From positions 1 to 24,819 of IMG/VR virus record IMGVR_UViG_3300037502_000118: 24,819 nucleotides of DNA; one strand, written 5' to 3'. The notes beneath the pieces were generated by a model. That model was not told the origin of the DNA and did no database searches. It saw only the letters and a list, made by a program, of their open reading frames with translations. This DNA is from a virus. Shown piece by piece: positions 5,413-17,391 of this stretch; positions within the stretch are counted from its first letter, which is position 1, and every line of letters starts with the position of its first letter. Position numbers and translations under genes: made by a program.

Positions 5413-5556
5413 ATGAGCAAGGCTATCGGCACTACCACATGGAGACCCTCACCGAAGCACAAGAGGACTTCACAAGCAACCTTCAAGGCTAGTCATAAAC
5501 GGTCTAGCACAAACAAACGCAATCGAAGTAAGCTGTATCGTGGGCAAGGCCGATGA
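5413..5556 (+). CDS. 47-residue strongly basic peptide upstream of phoH
   Basis: This small frame begins 29 bases after the reductase stop, behind an AAAGGAAAAG ribosome-binding site. It ends in an ATGA overlap with phoH, so it is very likely translated. It has 14 Lys/Arg residues and no Asp or Glu. It starts MSKAIGTTTWRPSPKHKR and ends SKLYRGQGR. The composition suggests a nucleic-acid-binding or RNA-associated peptide. PhoH proteins are thought to act on RNA, so a joint role is conceivable but unproven. I do not recognise a named family. Confidence 0.72.
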   Translation: MSKAIGTTTWRPSPKHKRTSQATFKASHKRSSTNKRNRSKLYRGQGR

Positions 5557-6260
5557 CTGAGGACATTGTAAAATCCTCTAGGCGCAAGAGCAAATACAAG
5601 AATGCGGAGGCAGAGGCGGCAGCTAGTGTTGTCGCCCTGCTTCCCATGAATGATAACCAGAAGTTGTACATTGATGCAATCAACAGCAATCAGCAAGTCA
5701 TCGTGCTTGGCCCTAGTGGCACAGGCAAGACGTTCATTGCTGCTACTGCTGCGGCCAATGCCTACGCCAGACGGGAGATAGACAGGATCGTGGTAACACG
5801 TCCCAATGTAAGCGTCGGCAAAGACTTGGGTTATCTGCCCGGATCGCTGGAAGAGAAGTATGCGCCATGGGTGTTGCCTGTCTTTGAAGTGCTTGAGAAG
5901 CAGCTAGGAAAAGCTGTCGTAGAAACAGGAGTGAAGAATGGAAACATTGAGATGGCACCTCTTGCAACTATGCGTGGGCGCAGCTTCCGTGATGCCTTTG
6001 TAATCTTGGATGAAGCGCAGAACACTACCATCCATGAAATGAAAATGCTCTTGACACGGGTAGGTGAAAACTGTAAGATCATCCTCAATGGTGACATTCG
6101 CCAGAGTGATATCAAAGAGCAGAGCGGCCTGAGCAAAATCATGCACTTGGCAAAGAAGTATCACATGGATGTGCCAGTCATTGAGTTCACTGTTGACGAT
6201 ATCGTTCGCAGTGATATCTGCAAAGCGTGGGTGATTGCTTTCATGGAGGAAGGTCTGTAA
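5553..6260 (+). CDS. phoH: PhoH-like ATPase
   Basis: This 235-residue protein has a Walker A loop at 53-60 (GPSGTGKT) and a Walker B segment FVILDEAQN at about 149-157. RIVVTRPNVSVGKDLGYLPG and IILNGDIRQSD are hallmark PhoH sequences. PhoH-type ATPases are related to the helicase superfamily 1 fold and are common in marine phages. Roles in RNA metabolism or phosphate stress are proposed, but the phage function is unsettled. The first 30 residues are a charged extension before the ATPase core. The start overlaps the stop of the basic 47-residue gene (ATGA), and the next gene begins one base after its TAA. Confidence 0.95.
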   Translation: MTEDIVKSSRRKSKYKNAEAEAAASVVALLPMNDNQKLYIDAINSNQQVIVLGPSGTGKTFIAATAAANAYARREIDRIVVTRPNVSVGKDLGYLPGSLEEKYAPWVLPVFEVLEKQLGKAVVETGVKNGNIEMAPLATMRGRSFRDAFVILDEAQNTTIHEMKMLLTRVGENCKIILNGDIRQSDIKEQSGLSKIMHLAKKYHMDVPVIEFTVDDIVRSDICKAWVIAFMEEGL

Positions 6261-6261
6261 C

Positions 6262-6426
6262 ATGAAGCCGTACGACAAAGGATACAAAGCGTTCTTCTAT
6301 GGGGACTTCAACAACCCCTTCAACAAGGGCAGCTTTGAAAGCAAGGAGTGGGAGCGTGGCTTTAACGCAGCCTACTTCACAAACCAGCAGGCACTGAAGG
6401 ACAACCATCATGAAGCTAGAGGATGA
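6262..6426 (+). CDS. ribosome modulation factor-like peptide
   Basis: The ATG at 6262 lies one base after the phoH stop and behind GGAGGAAGG inside phoH, giving 54 residues. The core pattern, YDKGYKAFFYG, then NNPFNKGS, then WERGFNAAYF, follows the layout of the RMF family: a G(Y)xxA helix, a small-residue turn with N-P-(Y/F), then WxxG(W/F)xxA. Bacterial RMF binds 70S ribosomes and drives their dimerisation into inactive 100S particles. A phage copy could tune host or phage translation, or it could use the same fold for another RNA-related purpose. The assignment rests on pattern matching over about 35 residues, so it is moderate. The last 17 bases overlap the next gene. Confidence 0.7.
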   Translation: MKPYDKGYKAFFYGDFNNPFNKGSFESKEWERGFNAAYFTNQQALKDNHHEARG

Positions 6427-6613
6427 AGCTGAACAGTTTCGCTATGGCAAACACATGCAGTTCCTCAGTGGTGTAACAGACGATCTGGCAAAGATCGAAG
6501 CGCGAATACTGAAAGGTCTACATGATACAAAAGAGCGTGAACACGCCATGACAAAGCTATCAGAAGCATTCATGTGGATACGAAAATGTATTGACACGCA
6601 CGGCATGAGGTAA
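6410..6613 (+). CDS. small helical protein resembling the Acb2/Tad1 hairpin family (candidate immune-signal sponge)
   Basis: This 67-residue, mostly helical protein is the last gene of the rightward operon. Its second half, HDTKEREHAMTKLSEAFMWI followed by RKCI, fits the phage family pattern 'p-(D/S)-x-R/K-E-x-x-x-A-(L/M)-T-K-L-x-E-A-x-M-W-x-x-x-x-I' seen in small Acb2/Tad1 hairpin-domain proteins. Proven members bind cyclic (oligo)nucleotides or cyclic ADP-ribose signals and so block CBASS or Thoeris defence. Many short relatives are uncharacterised, so sponge activity here is inference. The start ATG overlaps the RMF-like gene by 17 bases; an ATG at 6423 is in another frame and does not fit. 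The bidirectional terminator follows directly. A generic small helical protein is the alternative. Confidence 0.68.
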   Translation: MKLEDEAEQFRYGKHMQFLSGVTDDLAKIEARILKGLHDTKEREHAMTKLSEAFMWIRKCIDTHGMR

Positions 6614-6614
6614 A

Positions 6615-6656
6615 ACAAAAAGGGGGCTGCATCACTGCGGCCCCCTCTGCTTTTGT
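6615..6656. terminator. bidirectional rho-independent terminator between convergent operons
   Basis: The arms GGGGGCTGC (6622-6630) and GCGGCCCCC (6637-6645) pair over nine base pairs with one G-U wobble and enclose a six-base loop. Outside the stem, an A-rich run (6612-6621) gives a strong U-tract on minus-strand transcripts, and TCTGCTTTTG (6646-6655) gives a weaker one on plus-strand transcripts. It lies exactly between the stop of the rightward operon (6613) and the stop of the leftward operon (6658). Confidence 0.88.
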
Positions 6657-6657
6657 A

Positions 6658-9600
6658 TCAACGAGTGCTTCCTACACCCTTAGTGACACTCTCCATTTCA
6701 TCATACAGTTGAAGCAGTTGCTGTATAGCCAGTGCTTTCTGCGGTATGTCTTTTTGTCGTTCAAGATATCGTTCAGCACTTGGGGCACCAAGCTTGTCTT
6801 GAATGAAGGCATTGATCTGCTCAACACTGTATTTGTTTCGCATGTTTTTGGTACGGATCAACAGATCATTACGCAGGTAGCCCATAGCTAGATTAGGCTG
6901 TTCATGTACCAACTGCTCAAACCGCAGTTTTGTATTCTCTTTCACAATGCTGACATGCTCTGCAATACGTGCTCTGAGGTTGATGGCCTTCAACTCGTCA
7001 GGGAGCATTGTGTATACATCTGAGTTGATGTATTCCTCCATTCTACCCGGAAGATTATACATGTCTTCCCTAGCCATGATGGCAAGCATAGCGTAATGAA
7101 GAGAAGGATTTGGAGCATTACGCTTTCCAAACAGCGTCCACTCTTCGATGTTCAGCCTAGCCAATTCTCTTTGCAAAGCACTAGGAGGCACGTTCGTGCG
7201 CAAGCCTGTTAGCTGTTTCATGAGTGGATTGATTTCCTGCACAGGGCGATTGTTAAACAGCCACCACAGAGGAAGATCACGCTTGCCGTCTAGGCTTTCA
7301 AACCACTGGTTTATGGCTATATCAGGCATGAACCTAGCAAAACGTTGTGCTGGTTCTGTCGTAATCTCAATAAGATCAAACAAGTTGATGGTGTCACCTT
7401 GAGTTGATCGAGTATACGGCTTGATAGAGTTACGAGGATCAAACTGTCCAAGAGCATCCCTGAATGCTGCAAGGGGATAGGTAAATCGAGCGGCTACATC
7501 ACTAACACGATTTGCAACTTCCTCTGCAGTATAGCCAGATTCCCATGCCTGAGCAAGTCTGGTCCAGCTATTAAGCATACCGCTGCCCTCGAACATCAGA
7601 CCCGTTCCGATAAGTGATTCTTCAATTTTAGCAAGATTATCAGGTGCTTTACCAATGGGAAGATCATTATTGTAGCGATACATCAGATCAGCAAACACAT
7701 ACATTGGCAGCAATGGCCCAAGGATGCGGTTTGTGTCAACTTCATTGCCTTCTTCGTCAATGAATGTACCAATCTTTGCATCAGCGCCCTGCTGCGCACG
7801 AATGCCATACAGAGCAGAGAAGATGCCAAGGCCAGTCATCTGTCTAGCAAGGCGAGTAGCCATGTCCTTGCCTTCCACACGCTGTCCCGTAGCCAACTCT
7901 CGTGCCATAGTCATAGCACCAACACCCGGCATATAGTCATGGAAGAACTCAAGATGGTTTGCTATGTAGCGAGGGAACGGTGTAAGGAGAGTAGAGACAG
8001 CAAAAGGTACACGCTGATGTGTTCTAAGAACCCAATTTGCTGCCTGTGCAAATGCTGTATCGCGTTCTTCATATCCTTTTTGGAAAGTGTAACGAAGGCT
8101 GTCATCAACCGCCTTTTTGACTATGTTTTCAGGCAAGTCGCTGAAGAGACCGCCTTTGCGAATGAAGTCTTCGATGTCAACACCAATGTTGGCGTCATTC
8201 AATTCACGCAGTGAGCGACTGACACTTGCAGTAAACACAGCACTCTTGAATGTGTTGTCAGATATTTGGTTCAACACGTTAAGGGCTGTTCCTGCTCGTG
8301 ACAACAGACTAGTAGAATTGTTATCCAGTTCTACTTGTGACGTTTCCCTAAACAGTTTGTTAACCTGATTTGATCCTGTAGCCATAAGCTTCAGCACTTC
8401 AGTAACTTCCCTGTCAGTTGTCATGTATTTTAGGACATCAAGAGAGCCACGGAAAGGGTTGCGCCAATCGCCACGACCGCTATCACGAATGACATTGCTG
8501 AAGAAGTTGTCAACGGCATCAATGCCGATACGACCAAAGCCAAAGACAAAGTTAGCAGCAGTAGTAGCAGGCTGAACTGTCAGTGCAGCAATACCAAACT
8601 TGTCCAAGTCATTTGCAAAATTGAAAAGTTTGCTGTTGTTATTGGCACCACGTTTTGCAAAAGCACGAAGTTGGGCATCAGAGACAGTAACAAGATTGCG
8701 ATTGAACAGATGACGAATAGCCATCAACGACTTTTCGTAGTCTGTCTGTGCTGCTTCAAGTCGCAGTTTCTTATCTGTAGATGAACCTTTTCCTGCTGCT
8801 TTACGCAACTGAGATGCAATCTGCAACGTCTTACCAGCGCGGGAGAACTCAGAAACAAACACGGCAGAGATTTCATCTGCAGTGAGACCGAGCCGTTTCT
8901 TGACATCAAGCAGAATCTGCTCACCATCATTACGATCAGCAATCAGTTGCGTGATACGAGTAGTTTTCAGATCATCAGCGGTGATGCCAAGTCTGTTAAC
9001 AAGTTCAACGGATGCAGCAGCGACCTTCTGAAGCTGGTCAGGCGCAATGCCAAGCGACATGAAGTAAGGCAGATCATCTTTTGTGTAGCCTTCAAGTACA
9101 GCACTTTTTACGCGCTCGCCCAACTTAACCATCTCTCTGTCCAACGAAGGGCGAGTGTCGTACCTGTTGTAGCCTTTTCCTGTTGCAGCTTCAGCCAGCA
9201 TGGATGCGTAATCAACAACGTTCTCAAGTGCAGCGTCAAGTACTTTGGAATCTTTGACCTGACTGATGGCTGCTGTAACTGTTCCTTGTGATGCAAACTG
9301 TCTGCGCATGGTCTCAGTAAATGCCTGCTCAATCAGATCAGCACCAACGTTCTTGCTTTTGGCTTGCAGAATACCACGAGTTGCACCACCAATGACGCCA
9401 CCAAACAGGGCGCTTGCACCACCAGCAAACGCTACTTCGGCCATATCAACGTCATACTCAGAAACAGCTTCATCCCGTGTCTGCTGATTGATGAACTCCA
9501 TGCTGGCACCAAGTGTTCCTTCAACAGCAGCAGCACGGGCAGCACCGATACGAACAGCCTGACCAACAGTCTGTCGCTTGATGCCAGACTTCAGGGCCTG

Positions 9601-10080
9601 TCTCATTGCAATCAGCGCACCTTCTTTGGCTGCCAGTGCAGTTACTTTAGCAGGCGCAGAGCCAAGACCAGCAGTCAACACAGACACTGCAGTAGATGGT
9701 GACACAAGAGTACCCATGAAATAGTCACCAAGGACACCCGCAGACATGTCTTCACCTTCAGACTCATCCCATGCAATCATGAGACGGCCAAAAGCATCCT
9801 TGCCTCTCTGAATGTTTGGATCGTTCAGTGTGTCTGACATGGCAAACTGAAGATCACGAACTGCAGTGGCTTCATTTGAGGATTGCCAGCGCATGTGAGT
9901 GAAGAACTCATCAGCCAAATCTTTAGGCTTCATGCTCTTGATCTTGTCTGCAGAATAGTTGTAACGACTGCTTTGGAAGAAGTCAACCAAATCCTGTTGA
10001 AACTCGGGTTCCTCAATGAAGTCGGACAGCGACTTGCCTCTGGTGCGTTCATAGTAGGGAAGATTGCTTTGCTGATCCAT
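6658..10080 (-). CDS. large internal/ejection virion protein candidate (1140 residues)
   Basis: This is the last gene of the leftward structural operon. I cannot assign a named family, but size, position and composition resemble the large internal core or DNA-ejection proteins of podoviruses. The region around residues 115-240 is rich in Ala and Gly with long uncharged stretches (GVIGGATRGI, SPSTAVSVLTAGLG) that could enter or cross a membrane. Long charged helical stretches follow (about 250-500). The rest reads as mixed helical sequence, including DLPLWWLFNNRPVQEINPL near residue 975. No lysozyme motif is visible; that activity may be supplied by the gene at 11645-12397. The start is 12 bases after the upstream stop and is preceded by a weak GGA. 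The function is inferred from context. Confidence 0.8.
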   Translation of the reverse strand: MDQQSNLPYYERTRGKSLSDFIEEPEFQQDLVDFFQSSRYNYSADKIKSMKPKDLADEFFTHMRWQSSNEATAVRDLQFAMSDTLNDPNIQRGKDAFGRLMIAWDESEGEDMSAGVLGDYFMGTLVSPSTAVSVLTAGLGSAPAKVTALAAKEGALIAMRQALKSGIKRQTVGQAVRIGAARAAAVEGTLGASMEFINQQTRDEAVSEYDVDMAEVAFAGGASALFGGVIGGATRGILQAKSKNVGADLIEQAFTETMRRQFASQGTVTAAISQVKDSKVLDAALENVVDYASMLAEAATGKGYNRYDTRPSLDREMVKLGERVKSAVLEGYTKDDLPYFMSLGIAPDQLQKVAAASVELVNRLGITADDLKTTRITQLIADRNDGEQILLDVKKRLGLTADEISAVFVSEFSRAGKTLQIASQLRKAAGKGSSTDKKLRLEAAQTDYEKSLMAIRHLFNRNLVTVSDAQLRAFAKRGANNNSKLFNFANDLDKFGIAALTVQPATTAANFVFGFGRIGIDAVDNFFSNVIRDSGRGDWRNPFRGSLDVLKYMTTDREVTEVLKLMATGSNQVNKLFRETSQVELDNNSTSLLSRAGTALNVLNQISDNTFKSAVFTASVSRSLRELNDANIGVDIEDFIRKGGLFSDLPENIVKKAVDDSLRYTFQKGYEERDTAFAQAANWVLRTHQRVPFAVSTLLTPFPRYIANHLEFFHDYMPGVGAMTMARELATGQRVEGKDMATRLARQMTGLGIFSALYGIRAQQGADAKIGTFIDEEGNEVDTNRILGPLLPMYVFADLMYRYNNDLPIGKAPDNLAKIEESLIGTGLMFEGSGMLNSWTRLAQAWESGYTAEEVANRVSDVAARFTYPLAAFRDALGQFDPRNSIKPYTRSTQGDTINLFDLIEITTEPAQRFARFMPDIAINQWFESLDGKRDLPLWWLFNNRPVQEINPLMKQLTGLRTNVPPSALQRELARLNIEEWTLFGKRNAPNPSLHYAMLAIMAREDMYNLPGRMEEYINSDVYTMLPDELKAINLRARIAEHVSIVKENTKLRFEQLVHEQPNLAMGYLRNDLLIRTKNMRNKYSVEQINAFIQDKLGAPSAERYLERQKDIPQKALAIQQLLQLYDEMESVTKGVGSTR

Positions 10081-12408: not shown

Positions 12409-15400
12409 TTACAGTATTTGACCAAGACTGCTAAAAATGCTAGTCACGAGGGCTGTCTTCTCTTTGCTTCTTTGCAGTGCAGCTTCCGCTTCAGTTCCCA
12501 TCTTTTGAATGAGCAGATTGGTGGCTCTATCTTCTGCATTCTCAGAAGCAGTAAAAGCAAACGACATTAGGTCACGCTCACGCTGCCACAAATTGTCTAG
12601 CGTAGTCTTTGTCATTTCAGTTGCAGCAAGTGCATTCTGCATGTTTGCTTGTTGCTGTGCTGCAAACTCAGTTGTAGCAATGTTCTGCCTCCACTGTGCA
12701 TTGGACTGAGCAATCACGAGAGCGTTCTGTGCTTCAAAGATATCACGAGCATTCTGAATCTCAGTGTTGAAGCGGGCTATAGCGTTAGTTTCACCAATGT
12801 TGAACTGATTAATCGCATTCTTTTGTGCTGCATTGAATTGCGACACTTGAGCAACAAGGCTAGAATTGAACTGATCAACCTGCATCTGAGAAGACGCATT
12901 GAATTGCCTTGCAGCATTCTCAGAAGCAGCATCACTAAGAATAGCCTGAACACGAGCCTGCGTGTTGAACATTGTCATCTGCTGCTCATTGTTCAGATTA
13001 GTGAGGTCCATCTGAAGGAACGCTTGAGCATTCTGCACAGCGGCTTGCTGCCGATTGTTCAAGTTAGCCATATCCATATTAGCTATGGTAGCAGCATTTG
13101 CAAGCACAGCAGTATTCTTGGCACTCATTTCAGCAAGGCCAATAGTTTGCATCAACTGAGAGTTAGACAAAGCAGCTTGCTGCTGGGCATTGAACGTGAT
13201 ATTGGCAGCCTCAGCAAAGCGTTCAGCGTTTACGATGGCAGTCTGCTGTTTGTTCGTCAGTTCCTGCCCACGAATTGCAGCTTCAATCTGTACATTGGCA
13301 AGGGCAGTCTGTTGACGGTTAGACAGATTAGCTAGATCAACCTGCAGATTATTGGCGGTGTTGAACAGACGAGTCTGCTGCTCATTGCTAAGATCAATCT
13401 GCCGCTCTTCAACTGCATTGGCAATGTTGAAGATTGCAGTCTGCTGTTGATTGGTCATGGCCTGCTGCTTGAAAGCAACATCAGCAGCATACTGTTGAAC
13501 AAACGCTTGCTGCTTGTTCGACAGATTGATATTGTTCACTTCCGCATAGCGGGATGCGTTAATGATAGCTGTCTGTTGCAGATTGTCAAGCACTTTGCCC
13601 TGAAGTGTAGCACGAAGTTGAGCATTGGCAAGATCAGACTGCTGCCTGTTAGACAGATTAGCCATATCGACTTCAAGTGCCTGTGCAGTCTTCAGCATCA
13701 GGCCCTGTTGCTCATTGTTAAGGTTGATGTCAGCAACTTGAGCAGCACGAGCAGCATTGAATAGAGCCGCCTGTTGGCGGTTATCCAGTGTTTTGCCTTC
13801 AAACACAGCACGAATGCTGGCATCTTGGACAAAAGCCTGCTGCTGATTGCTGAGGTTGATATTGTTGATTTCAGCGTATCGTGCAGCGTTAATCACAGCG
13901 GCTTGCTGCTGATTGTCCAGCACTTTACCTTGAAGCGTAGCGCGAAGTTGAGCGTTAGCCAACTCAGTTTGCTGACGGCTAGACAAGTTAGCCATGTCAA
14001 CCTCAAGTGCCTGTGCAGTCTTAAGCATGGTGCTTTGCTGCTCATTGTTGAGGTTGATATCAGCGACTTGGGCCTGACGAGCAGCGTTAAACAGCACAGC
14101 CTGTTGGCGATTGTCCAGTGCTTTGCCTTCAAGCACAGCACGGATATTAGCGTCCTGCACAAAAGCTTGCTGCTGGTTATTCAGAGAGATATTGTTAGCT
14201 TCAGCGTAACGCGCCGCATTAATGACAGCAGCTTGTTGCTGATTGTCCAGAACCTTGCCCTGAAGAGCAGCACGAAGTTGAGCATTAGCGAGTTCCGTCT
14301 GCACACGAGTAGACTGGTTTTGCAGTTCTACCTGAAGATTTTCAGCAGAACGCTGAAGCAGAACCTGCTGTTGATTGCTGAGATTGATGTCATTGACTTG
14401 AGCAATACGAGCAGCATTGACTAGCGCAGTCTGGCTGCGAATGTCCATTGCACGACCTTCAAGGGCGGCACGTGCTTGTGCATCCTGCATGAAAGCCTGC
14501 TGTTGAGCACTAGCATTGAAGTTAGCTGCTTCAAACAGTTGCTGCGATTGTAGCACAGCCATCTGCTGCTCATTGGTGAGTTCTTGTCCTTTGAGTGCAG
14601 CACGAACTTGAAGATTGCTGAGTGCAACTTGCTGCCTGTTGTTAAGATTAGTAAGATCAACTTGCAGGTTTTGAGCAGAGTTCTGCAGTCGTGTTTGCTG
14701 CTCATTGTTGAGATTGATGTTATACGCCTCGGCATAACGGGCAGCATTGGCGACAGCGGCTTGTGCGTTTACAGAGATGACCTGATTTTGCAGTGCAGCC
14801 TTGAATTGTGCATTGGCAAGGACAACGGCTTGCTGATTGGATAGGTTTTGAGATTGCAGAGCAAAAGCATTGGCACTATTCTGAAGCGATGCTTGCTGCC
14901 TGTTGTTAAGATTGGACAGTTCCATGTTCTGCTGAGCAGCAGCATTAGCAAGAGCAACCTGTTGTCTATTGTTAAGGTTGGTAAGCTGCATCTGCATGAA
15001 CACTTGTGCATCTTGAGCAGCAATAGGCATAGCCGATTCCATGGCTGCCTGCACGATTGCAGCACCAGCCATAGAGGATGCACCAAGACCACGAGCAGCC
15101 ATTGCAGCATTGGCAGCGCGCATTGCACCAGCAGCCCACGCAGGAGTTCCATTATTGAACTGCTGCATGAGTTGAGACATCTGTCCTTGAATAGTAGACA
15201 GAGGCGACACTTCTCCTTGCTCAGCTTGAGCGAAGGCTGCCTGCGTAAAGGTGCCTTGTTGAGCCGTAGCAATAGCAGCGGCGTCAACTTGGCTCATGGT
15301 AGCAGCGACTGCTTCAATCGCCTTTTCAGCACCAATGATGTCACGCGCATTAACAAGCTGATCCGCACCAACAGTGCCTTGGGCTGCTTGAATGGTAGAC

Positions 15401-17391
15401 TGCCATGAAGTAGACAGTGCCTCAGCCGTGGGAATCTCAGCCGCTTTAGCTGCATTAGCTACAGCAGTGGCTTGCAGTCGAGCAACTTCAGTGGGAGGCA
15501 GAGTATAGTAGTCTTGAGCAGTAACAAGTTCCCCTGCATCTACCCTGCCTTGGGCCGCCTGAAGGTTAGATACATACCCACTAGTAACAGTAGAAGCTTG
15601 GTCTGCTGTAAGGCCAATACCCTGAGCCGCCACTATTTCATTAGCGCCAACCGTTGCTGTAGCAAACTGCGTCTGAATGTCGTTGTATGTAGTCTGCGCT
15701 TGAGCAAGTTGTTCAGCGGCTATCTCGCCCCTAGCATACTTTGCCTGTGCTTCATACAGAGACTGCTGAGCAGTAGCCTGCGCTGCTTGAAGATTGCCGC
15801 CTTGTGCTTGCACAAGTTCGTTCGCAGTAGCAGCACCAAAGGCCACTTGCGTTTGAATGTTAGTATAGTTTGTTTGCGCTTGAGCGAGTTGATCGGCAGT
15901 CAGTTGACCTTTTGCAAATAGGGCCTGAGCCTGATACAAAGATTGCTGTGCAGTAGACTGCGCTGCCTGCATGTCGCCGCCATAGGCTTGCGCAAGTTCT
16001 TGTGCAGACACACTACGAGTGGCAAAGTCCATTGCGCCAAGCTGATACTGCGTGACAGCCTGCGCTTGAGGCGTAGGCGTGGTAAAGCGAGCAGCCTCAG
16101 CGGTAGGCGCTTGTCCTAGAAACTGTTGAACTTGCGCTTGAGGAATGTTGAGGGCAGTCGCAGCCTGTGCAAGCTGTTCAGGAGTAACTTGAAGTTGACC
16201 CGACTGGACCTGCTGGATGTACTGCGGAGACACACCAATAGCCTGAGCAATAGCGCCAGCAGACAGTGCCCCCTGAGCAGGAGTGATCTGTGCTTGTGGA
16301 GACACAGCGCCTTGGGCAGCTTGTGCTCCTGCAACAGCACCAGCAACACCCGGAGCAGCAGCGAGAGATTGAAACGACACAGCCTGAGAGGGAGGCGGTG
16401 CAATAGTTGTTTCAGCACCCATCATGGTGGTAGTTGGAGTAGTGGGAGCAGCACCAACGGCACCTGTTCCGGGGGCAATCTCACCGCCAGTAGGAGCCAT
16501 TGTAGGGGCAGTTGCAGGAGTAATAGTGCCTTGCGGACCAGTGTATACAGAAGTAAGAAGTTGCTGTTGTCCTTGCCTGATGGTATCAACATTAGGCTGC
16601 GTAGCAGTGGTAGTGGTAGGCTGCGTAGCAGTGGTAGTGGTAGGCTGCGTAGCAGTGGTAGTGGTAGGCTGCGTAGCAGTGGTAGTGGTAGGCTGCGTAG
16701 CAGTGGTAGGCTCTTGGTCTCTTCCAATTAAGCCAGAAGCAGCCACAACAGGCTGCGTAGCAGTGGTGGTGGTAGGCTGCGTAGCAGTGGTAGTGGTAGG
16801 CTGCGTAGCAGTGGTAGTGGTAGGCTGCGTAGCAGTGGTAGTGGTAGGCTGCGTAGCAGTGGTAGTGGTAGGCTGCGTAGCAGTGGTAGTGGTAGGCTGC
16901 GTAGCAGTAACAGGTTCTTGGTCTCTTCCAATTAAACCAGACGCAGCTACAGCGGGCTGCCTAGCAGTGGTAGTCGTAGGCTGCGTAGCAGTGACAGGCT
17001 GAGACGCAGCAGCAATCAGTCTCCGCATCTCCGCTTGCACTGCATTTTTATCCGTAGACTGAGCACTAACAGCTTTACCCGTGTTCAAATCCTTGATGTA
17101 ATACAAAGGATCATCGTCACGTCTAGGCATAGTGACAACAGTATAATTAGGCTTGACAACACCACCTTGCTGCATACCCATGGCAGCAGCGGGAGGAACT
17201 GCTTTGGCTGCAGGCTGACCAGCAATCATGCGCTGTGCTGTAGCAGAATATTTGCCCATCTTTGCAGCAGCCGCTGGATTGGCTGCCATGAACTGTTGCA
17301 TGGCTTTCGGATCAGCGGGACCATGATAGCCCATCTTCTGCAGCAGCACCGCAGTCTGTTGAGGCGTAAAGCCTGCAAATTGCTTAGCCAT
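12409..17391 (-). CDS. giant repeat-built virion protein (1660 residues)
   Basis: This is the largest gene in the window. Residues 1-135 are globular and Ala-rich. Residues 136-270 hold the eight-residue repeat ATQPTTTT, eleven perfect copies in three blocks, with two SGLIGRDQEP interruptions. Residues 300-420 are Pro/Thr/Gln/Ala-rich. Two copies of a 60-residue unit (AQELAQAYGG / ANELVQAQGG) and a partial third follow. From about residue 800 to 1475 there are about thirty 22-residue helical units, each marked by an NN(E/R/Q)QQ-like motif. The C-terminus has FN-containing helical repeats and ends with a charged helix. Units of 22 (2 x 11) residues are typical of long regular helices. I do not know a function; a long internal fibre, ejection-tunnel or tape-measure-like component fits the structural context. 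AAGGT lies before the ATG. Confidence 0.85.
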   Translation of the reverse strand: MAKQFAGFTPQQTAVLLQKMGYHGPADPKAMQQFMAANPAAAAKMGKYSATAQRMIAGQPAAKAVPPAAAMGMQQGGVVKPNYTVVTMPRRDDDPLYYIKDLNTGKAVSAQSTDKNAVQAEMRRLIAAASQPVTATQPTTTTARQPAVAASGLIGRDQEPVTATQPTTTTATQPTTTTATQPTTTTATQPTTTTATQPTTTTATQPTTTTATQPVVAASGLIGRDQEPTTATQPTTTTATQPTTTTATQPTTTTATQPTTTTATQPNVDTIRQGQQQLLTSVYTGPQGTITPATAPTMAPTGGEIAPGTGAVGAAPTTPTTTMMGAETTIAPPPSQAVSFQSLAAAPGVAGAVAGAQAAQGAVSPQAQITPAQGALSAGAIAQAIGVSPQYIQQVQSGQLQVTPEQLAQAATALNIPQAQVQQFLGQAPTAEAARFTTPTPQAQAVTQYQLGAMDFATRSVSAQELAQAYGGDMQAAQSTAQQSLYQAQALFAKGQLTADQLAQAQTNYTNIQTQVAFGAATANELVQAQGGNLQAAQATAQQSLYEAQAKYARGEIAAEQLAQAQTTYNDIQTQFATATVGANEIVAAQGIGLTADQASTVTSGYVSNLQAAQGRVDAGELVTAQDYYTLPPTEVARLQATAVANAAKAAEIPTAEALSTSWQSTIQAAQGTVGADQLVNARDIIGAEKAIEAVAATMSQVDAAAIATAQQGTFTQAAFAQAEQGEVSPLSTIQGQMSQLMQQFNNGTPAWAAGAMRAANAAMAARGLGASSMAGAAIVQAAMESAMPIAAQDAQVFMQMQLTNLNNRQQVALANAAAQQNMELSNLNNRQQASLQNSANAFALQSQNLSNQQAVVLANAQFKAALQNQVISVNAQAAVANAARYAEAYNINLNNEQQTRLQNSAQNLQVDLTNLNNRQQVALSNLQVRAALKGQELTNEQQMAVLQSQQLFEAANFNASAQQQAFMQDAQARAALEGRAMDIRSQTALVNAARIAQVNDINLSNQQQVLLQRSAENLQVELQNQSTRVQTELANAQLRAALQGKVLDNQQQAAVINAARYAEANNISLNNQQQAFVQDANIRAVLEGKALDNRQQAVLFNAARQAQVADINLNNEQQSTMLKTAQALEVDMANLSSRQQTELANAQLRATLQGKVLDNQQQAAVINAARYAEINNINLSNQQQAFVQDASIRAVFEGKTLDNRQQAALFNAARAAQVADINLNNEQQGLMLKTAQALEVDMANLSNRQQSDLANAQLRATLQGKVLDNLQQTAIINASRYAEVNNINLSNKQQAFVQQYAADVAFKQQAMTNQQQTAIFNIANAVEERQIDLSNEQQTRLFNTANNLQVDLANLSNRQQTALANVQIEAAIRGQELTNKQQTAIVNAERFAEAANITFNAQQQAALSNSQLMQTIGLAEMSAKNTAVLANAATIANMDMANLNNRQQAAVQNAQAFLQMDLTNLNNEQQMTMFNTQARVQAILSDAASENAARQFNASSQMQVDQFNSSLVAQVSQFNAAQKNAINQFNIGETNAIARFNTEIQNARDIFEAQNALVIAQSNAQWRQNIATTEFAAQQQANMQNALAATEMTKTTLDNLWQRERDLMSFAFTASENAEDRATNLLIQKMGTEAEAALQRSKEKTALVTSIFSSLGQIL
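12960..15000 (-). repeat. 66-bp tandem units (22 residues) nested in 330-bp super-repeats
   Basis: Equivalent positions of the Asn/Gln motif recur every 66 bases from 12985 to 14965, keeping phase over about 31 positions. Within this array a five-unit super-repeat recurs every 330 bases: the motif that reads CTCATTG or similar on the plus strand stands at 13381, 13711, 14041, 14371 and 14701. The central copies (13711-14371) are most alike, and they differ largely at synonymous positions. Confidence 0.92.
15620..16020 (-). repeat. 180-bp repeat (60 residues)
   Basis: Two copies and a partial third of a 60-residue Ala/Gln-rich helical unit are encoded here. The equivalent sites GCTTGCGCAAG (15986) and GCTTGCACAAG (15806) on the plus strand are exactly 180 bases apart. 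Each unit contains QAAQ, QQSLYQAQ and QLAQAQT segments. Confidence 0.8.
16593..16995 (-). repeat. 24-bp minisatellite encoding ATQPTTTT
   Basis: A nearly invariant 24-base unit (TAGGCTGCGTAGCAGTGGTA plus GTGG on the plus strand) is repeated head to tail in three blocks, separated by two near-identical spacers encoding AASGLIGRDQEP (about 16710-16750 and 16913-16955). The unit length is a multiple of three, so copy-number changes keep the frame. Confidence 0.95.

Follow-up and report, generated by a model that had tools for sequence, protein, structure and literature searches.

In the window, which spans the whole of an IMG/VR virus record of 24,819 bases, the rightward operon closes with a gene whose product is, on the support of sequence profiles and a predicted fold, a short and divergent protein of the Acb2/Tad1 hairpin superfamily. 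By analogy with other members of that family, its most likely role is to form oligomers that soak up an immune nucleotide, and we consider this sponge reading probable. The gene defines a subfamily within the HMO-2011-type marine roseophages. Its proteins fall under the Pfam cut-off and are annotated as "hypothetical protein" in phages CRP-2, CRP-207 and CRP-603, and this analysis gives them a name. In the upper ocean, HMO-2011-type phages are reported as both dominant and widespread (PMC9038755). If the sponge works, it places signalling-based immunity and a counter-measure to it in these phages.

A conserved gene at the end of the early operon

The open reading frame of 67 codons, with an ATG start (MKLEDEAEQFRYGKHMQFLSGVTDDLAKIEARILKGLHDTKEREHAMTKLSEAFMWIRKCIDTHGMR), lies at 6410-6613 on the plus strand. 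Both the full frame and the position are preserved in relatives whose proteins are 69%, 39% and 34% identical to it, and the codon differences from one related locus, L001, peak at third positions (13, 12 and 25). Because frame and position are kept and the differences peak in this way, the frame is protein-coding, and it is a real, conserved, operon-terminal gene. The sequence-only reading had described a 67-residue helical protein ending an early operon, and the observation is confirmed.

The operon occupies the left third of the window and includes a match to a Cas4-domain exonuclease, an endonuclease I-like gene, DUF3310, a MazG-like gene, ribonucleotide reductase and PhoH, with the hairpin gene last, downstream of phoH. 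The PhoH-like ATPase (5553-6260, plus strand; PF02562, E=8e-68) is upstream in nearly all related loci. A 54-aa reading frame (6262-6426, plus strand) follows it and shares 17 nt with the hairpin gene; L001 and L002 have the same gene upstream. Beyond the hairpin gene, a terminator-like hairpin of 11 pairs, eight of them G-C (6621-6646, plus strand), separates the convergent operons, and the early operon gives way to a convergent gene of 1140 aa (6658-10080, minus strand). Related loci long enough to show it have a convergent gene of about 1150 aa in the same place. The order in the examined loci is phoH, then one small gene or none, the hairpin gene and the convergent giant gene. In L018 and L023/L024 phoH was not picked up by our script, and a different small gene lies directly upstream of the hairpin gene.

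The 54-aa product carries a motif, GY..F..G...NPF........EWERGFN.AY, common to CRP-1 gp29 and CRP-345 gp38. CRP-1 gp29 matches ribosome modulation factor (RMF) weakly (PF04957, E=0.03), and the 54-aa product may be an RMF-like protein. The hairpin proteins of L001 and L002 are identical while their PhoH proteins differ strongly, and the PhoH of L002 looks close to that of the window. The contrast between these three sequences suggests recombination at the boundary between phoH and the hairpin gene.

Family membership and predicted fold

In Pfam, the protein matched a single family at E<=10, PF24729, Acb2_Tad1_hairpin (E=7.2e-4, 20.1 bits, residues 31-61). The match bears out the earlier identification of EREHAMTKLSEAFMW as the conserved hairpin helix. 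The stretch coding for residues 43-61 of the second helix (REHAMTKLSEAFMWIRKCI; 6536-6592, plus strand), the hallmark of the family, lies within the match and aligns with A66-V81 of Vs.4 of phage T4. The Pfam search proposed as a check on that identification found the family, but with a score under the curated gathering cut-off of 27 bits; relatives scored 15-17.5 bits. The shortfall concerns the curated threshold and does not speak against homology. PF24729 was matched by 14 of the 19 subfamily members, more than any other family was.

Comparing profiles gave a much stronger result. HHalign of the subfamily profile against 15 PF24729-type proteins returned a probability of 95.3, E=2.3e-8 and a score of 49, while the maximum was 17 among 200 column shuffles and 11.8 among 68 reversed rotations. 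A score so far over these controls indicates homology rather than chance similarity between helices. The 15 reference proteins were gathered by tblastn from a Curtobacterium relative and from T4 Vs.4, and all 11 that were scanned exceeded the PF24729 cut-off. The path to the Curtobacterium relative began at the window protein, so some caution is needed, but the PF24729 membership of the reference proteins is independent of it.

Other collections gave weaker matches. The window protein matched PHROG 15810 and PHROG 1454 weakly; both are also matched by proteins that clear the PF24729 cut-off by a wide margin (E down to 4e-34), and the CRP-603 protein matched PHROG 1454 at E=4e-6. Searching the PDB with a five-row profile placed "Acb2 homolog 43" (9ptq) first (E=0.033) and Tad1 third (E=1.1), while a 19-row profile did worse (9ptq at E=0.45, with chance matches to MAD2B). 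A phmmer search of the PDB with the single window protein gave nothing beyond chance matches. PADLOC gave no match at E<=10, and matches in NCBIfam were at chance level.

AlphaFold2, given 18 relatives, predicted an antiparallel two-helix hairpin with helices at 3-36 and 41-64 (mean pLDDT 90.6, pTM 0.68), the second helix carrying the L-x-E-x-x-M-W pattern of the family (L50, E52, M55, W56). Two-helix hairpins are a common shape, which weakens fold matches as evidence, and the best Foldseek match in the PDB, Tad1 (7uav), was not significant (E=1.3). The BFVD neighbours were more informative: behind a close relative at rank 1, ranks 2-17 include 12 named Acb2/Tad1 hairpin proteins and a thirteenth, from phiCB2047-B, that is PF24729-positive. 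The family call of the sequence-only reading is therefore supported by sequence-profile and profile-profile comparison and by the predicted fold. Its suggestion that a minimal length, shorter than Tad1, sets the protein apart was not borne out, as lengths of 61-76 aa are frequent among PF24729-type proteins and many of the BFVD neighbours have 61-72 aa; we reject the length of 67 aa as unusual in itself.

The nearest proteins, by profile and by BFVD models, are the short phage PF24729 proteins (PHROG 1454/15810, for example the 68-aa protein of Paenibacillus phage GIW2016) and "Acb2 homolog 43", a 76-aa protein with six chains in its PDB entry. Both share the length class and the motif. The short phage proteins that were tested scored 33-96 bits against PF24729 while roseophage subfamily members, tested individually, scored 15-20, and the roseophage subfamily has invariant residues of its own. 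Acb2 and Vs.4 (anti-CBASS 2; PHROG 717; PDB 7uq2, 8h2j and 8ixz) are also short and share the hairpin core, the AxTKLxEAxMWxx[RK] helix, a small residue at the A66 interface position and a basic R79 equivalent. However, they are 88-94 aa long, and little identity extends beyond the second helix. The window protein has no recognisable counterpart of the N-terminal loop and short helix that carry Y8 and H11; its predicted first helix is continuous over residues 3-36.

Ligand contacts and likely function

T4 Vs.4 forms hexamers, each of which takes up three cGAMP molecules (PMC10097602). Y8 and F82 stack on the ligand, while Y8, H11, K23 and R79 form hydrogen bonds and salt bridges with it. When L29, A66, A73 or A77 at the interface is substituted, the protein no longer oligomerises or binds the ligand (PMC10097602). 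A screen of T4 phage yielded vs.4 A77I, T12I, S74N and L60F, of which A77I clashes with the hexamer interface (PMC10097602). Acb2 has in addition a separate site for cyclic trinucleotides at the trimer interface (PMC12043709).

Mapped by alignment, the core of the second helix is well kept. Vs.4 A66 corresponds to A46 (Ala or Ser in 18 of 19 subfamily members), and L70, E72, M75 and W76 are retained as L50, E52, M55 and W56. A73 corresponds to A53, a position held by Val in 12 of the 19. A77 corresponds to I57, the residue of the clashing A77I mutant, which counts against the sponge reading; however, Ala occupies the position in 12 of 19 relatives, and Leu or Phe may stand there in bona fide PF24729 members. 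The ligand contacts fare differently. R79 becomes K59 (Lys or Arg in 16 of 19), and among the five residues of the Acb2 cGAMP pocket (Y8, H11, K23, R79, F82) this equivalent alone is retained. K23 is replaced by T23, and the position is basic in none of the 19 (T, Q, H, D, E or I) against 13 of 15 PF24729 proteins. F82 is replaced by D62 and is aromatic in no member (D, E, A, S or V), while its equivalent is Ala in eight of the 15 PF24729 proteins. Y8 and H11 lie outside the reliably aligned region, where an ungapped extension would place them on E6 and Q9. On this mapping the protein preserves the structural core but has lost most of the Vs.4 cGAMP contacts. As the contact residues differ, the ligand is probably held otherwise than cGAMP is by Vs.4.

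The 19 members share a different set of invariant residues, M1, E4, E6, A7, F10, F18, L37, H38, E42 and G65, with L50, E52, W56 and the K67 column nearly so. On the predicted secondary structure, these residues group around the turn (37-42) and the open end (the N-terminus and 64-67). A protomer predicted to be an antiparallel helical hairpin would, by analogy with Vs.4/Acb2, Tad1 and "Acb2 homolog 43", form a small oligomer of identical subunits, probably six. This oligomer would capture a nucleotide immune signal of the infected cell and keep it sequestered without degrading it. Candidate residues for a pocket of its own are E4, E6 and F10 with H64-G65 at the open end, and L37-H38 with E42 at the turn. 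It is tempting to propose that such residues (H38/E42, and E4/E6/F10 with H64-G65) hold a signal that neither Acb2 nor Tad1 handles, but we regard a sponge of new specificity as rather doubtful. If true, it would point to signalling defences of ocean roseobacters. The changed contact residues make the subfamily a good place to test whether ligand specificity has shifted.

Anti-CBASS activity towards an unspecified ligand is plausible. SMODS (CD-NTase) genes were found in 16 of 198 Rhodobacteraceae genomes and SAVED effectors in 13, so a CBASS-type target in the host family is plausible too. PF24729 proteins over the cut-off occur in nine of the 198 genomes (L170-L175), where they presumably sit in prophages. 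Our literature search found no paper on 9ptq, Acb2 R67 or roseophage anti-CBASS.

The loss of contact residues could also mean that a homologous hairpin has been repurposed, keeping the inherited fold and oligomer core to bind something other than an immune nucleotide, such as a metabolic nucleotide or a protein of the host. The distinct invariant set and the Vs.4 contact positions, which are not conserved, would fit such a change, as would the fixed place after phoH, which suggests long co-inheritance with metabolic genes. However, several contact positions are variable across PF24729 proteins as a whole, sibling phages swap other small frames into the slot, and the characterised superfamily members in the cited literature are nucleotide sponges. 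We consider repurposing possible, but clearly less probable than the sponge reading.

The sequence-only reading had also proposed an anti-Thoeris function, and this part of it, unlike the family assignment, is not supported. Tad1 (Thoeris anti-defense 1; PDB 7uav, 8smd and 8kbb-8kbh) shares the two-helix hairpin and a related motif, RE(N/K)xxAxTxxEEALMW, but has about 125-140 aa and an N-terminal antiparallel beta-sheet, and in its binding of gcADPR one protomer contributes loops and tail and a second one its helices (PMC12043709). The 67-aa window protein has two helices only, so the beta-sheet domain and parts of the gcADPR pocket are missing. With the Vs.4 contacts mostly lost as well, neither anti-Thoeris activity nor any named CBASS ligand is supported. 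A Tad1-like sponge sequestering gcADPR could draw on Tad1 heading the Foldseek list, non-significant as that match is, and on the Curtobacterium tblastn relative, which has 165 aa with extra C-terminal sequence and is annotated as cyclic nucleotide sequestering, but it is highly improbable. Least credible is a generic two-helix protein unrelated to Acb2/Tad1 and matched by chance: the single-sequence Pfam score under the cut-off would allow it, as would VIA-align, which ranks many unrelated helical hairpins (Z 7.3 to 6) over Tad1 (5.2) and is uninformative for this shape, but the calibrated profile comparison makes it very unlikely, and Pfam, PHROGs, the PDB sequence profile and the BFVD neighbours agree against it.

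Distribution and other hairpin genes

Relatives of the gene were found at 26 IMG/VR loci and in the three CRP phages. Full-length homologues have 69% identity (two IMG/VR contigs), 39% (CRP-207), 34% (CRP-2 and CRP-603) or, for the others, 31-40%. The window virus is probably a relative of the HMO-2011-type group, judging by gene content and order; at the DNA level almost nothing in the phage collection matches the window. The siblings CRP-13, CRP-3, CRP-235, CRP-1 and CRP-345 have other, unrelated small frames in the same slot at the operon end, none of them matching PF24729, which indicates that the hairpin gene is lineage-specific. Such exchange is the pattern expected of an accessory host-interaction gene. 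No relatives were found in the genome contig collection, nor in the 198 Rhodobacteraceae genomes, a search that had no positive control.

The Curtobacterium relative found no relatives in the viral contig collection. Curtobacterium phage Pippin15 gp61 (L007:642-947) is annotated as a "cyclic nucleotide sequestering protein" and has no Pfam match at E<=10, while the adjacent gp62 is over the PF24729 cut-off. The gp61 annotation may be wrong, or based on another family. The Sulfitobacter phage phiCB2047-B gene SUFG_00048 (AGH07415.1; L036:375-941), which adjoins thymidylate synthase, encodes a 188-aa "hypothetical protein" that combines a RyR domain (PF02026, 40.5 bits) with an Acb2/Tad1 hairpin over the cut-off (33.4 bits). 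Its domain content makes it a candidate two-domain nucleotide sponge from another lineage of marine roseophages.

No tRNA gene was found in the window. A 1660-aa reading frame (12409-17391) has about a dozen copies of long TQPTTTTA-type repeats, at 16450-17000 on the minus strand, and its protein is additionally rich in NLNNRQQ-type repeats.
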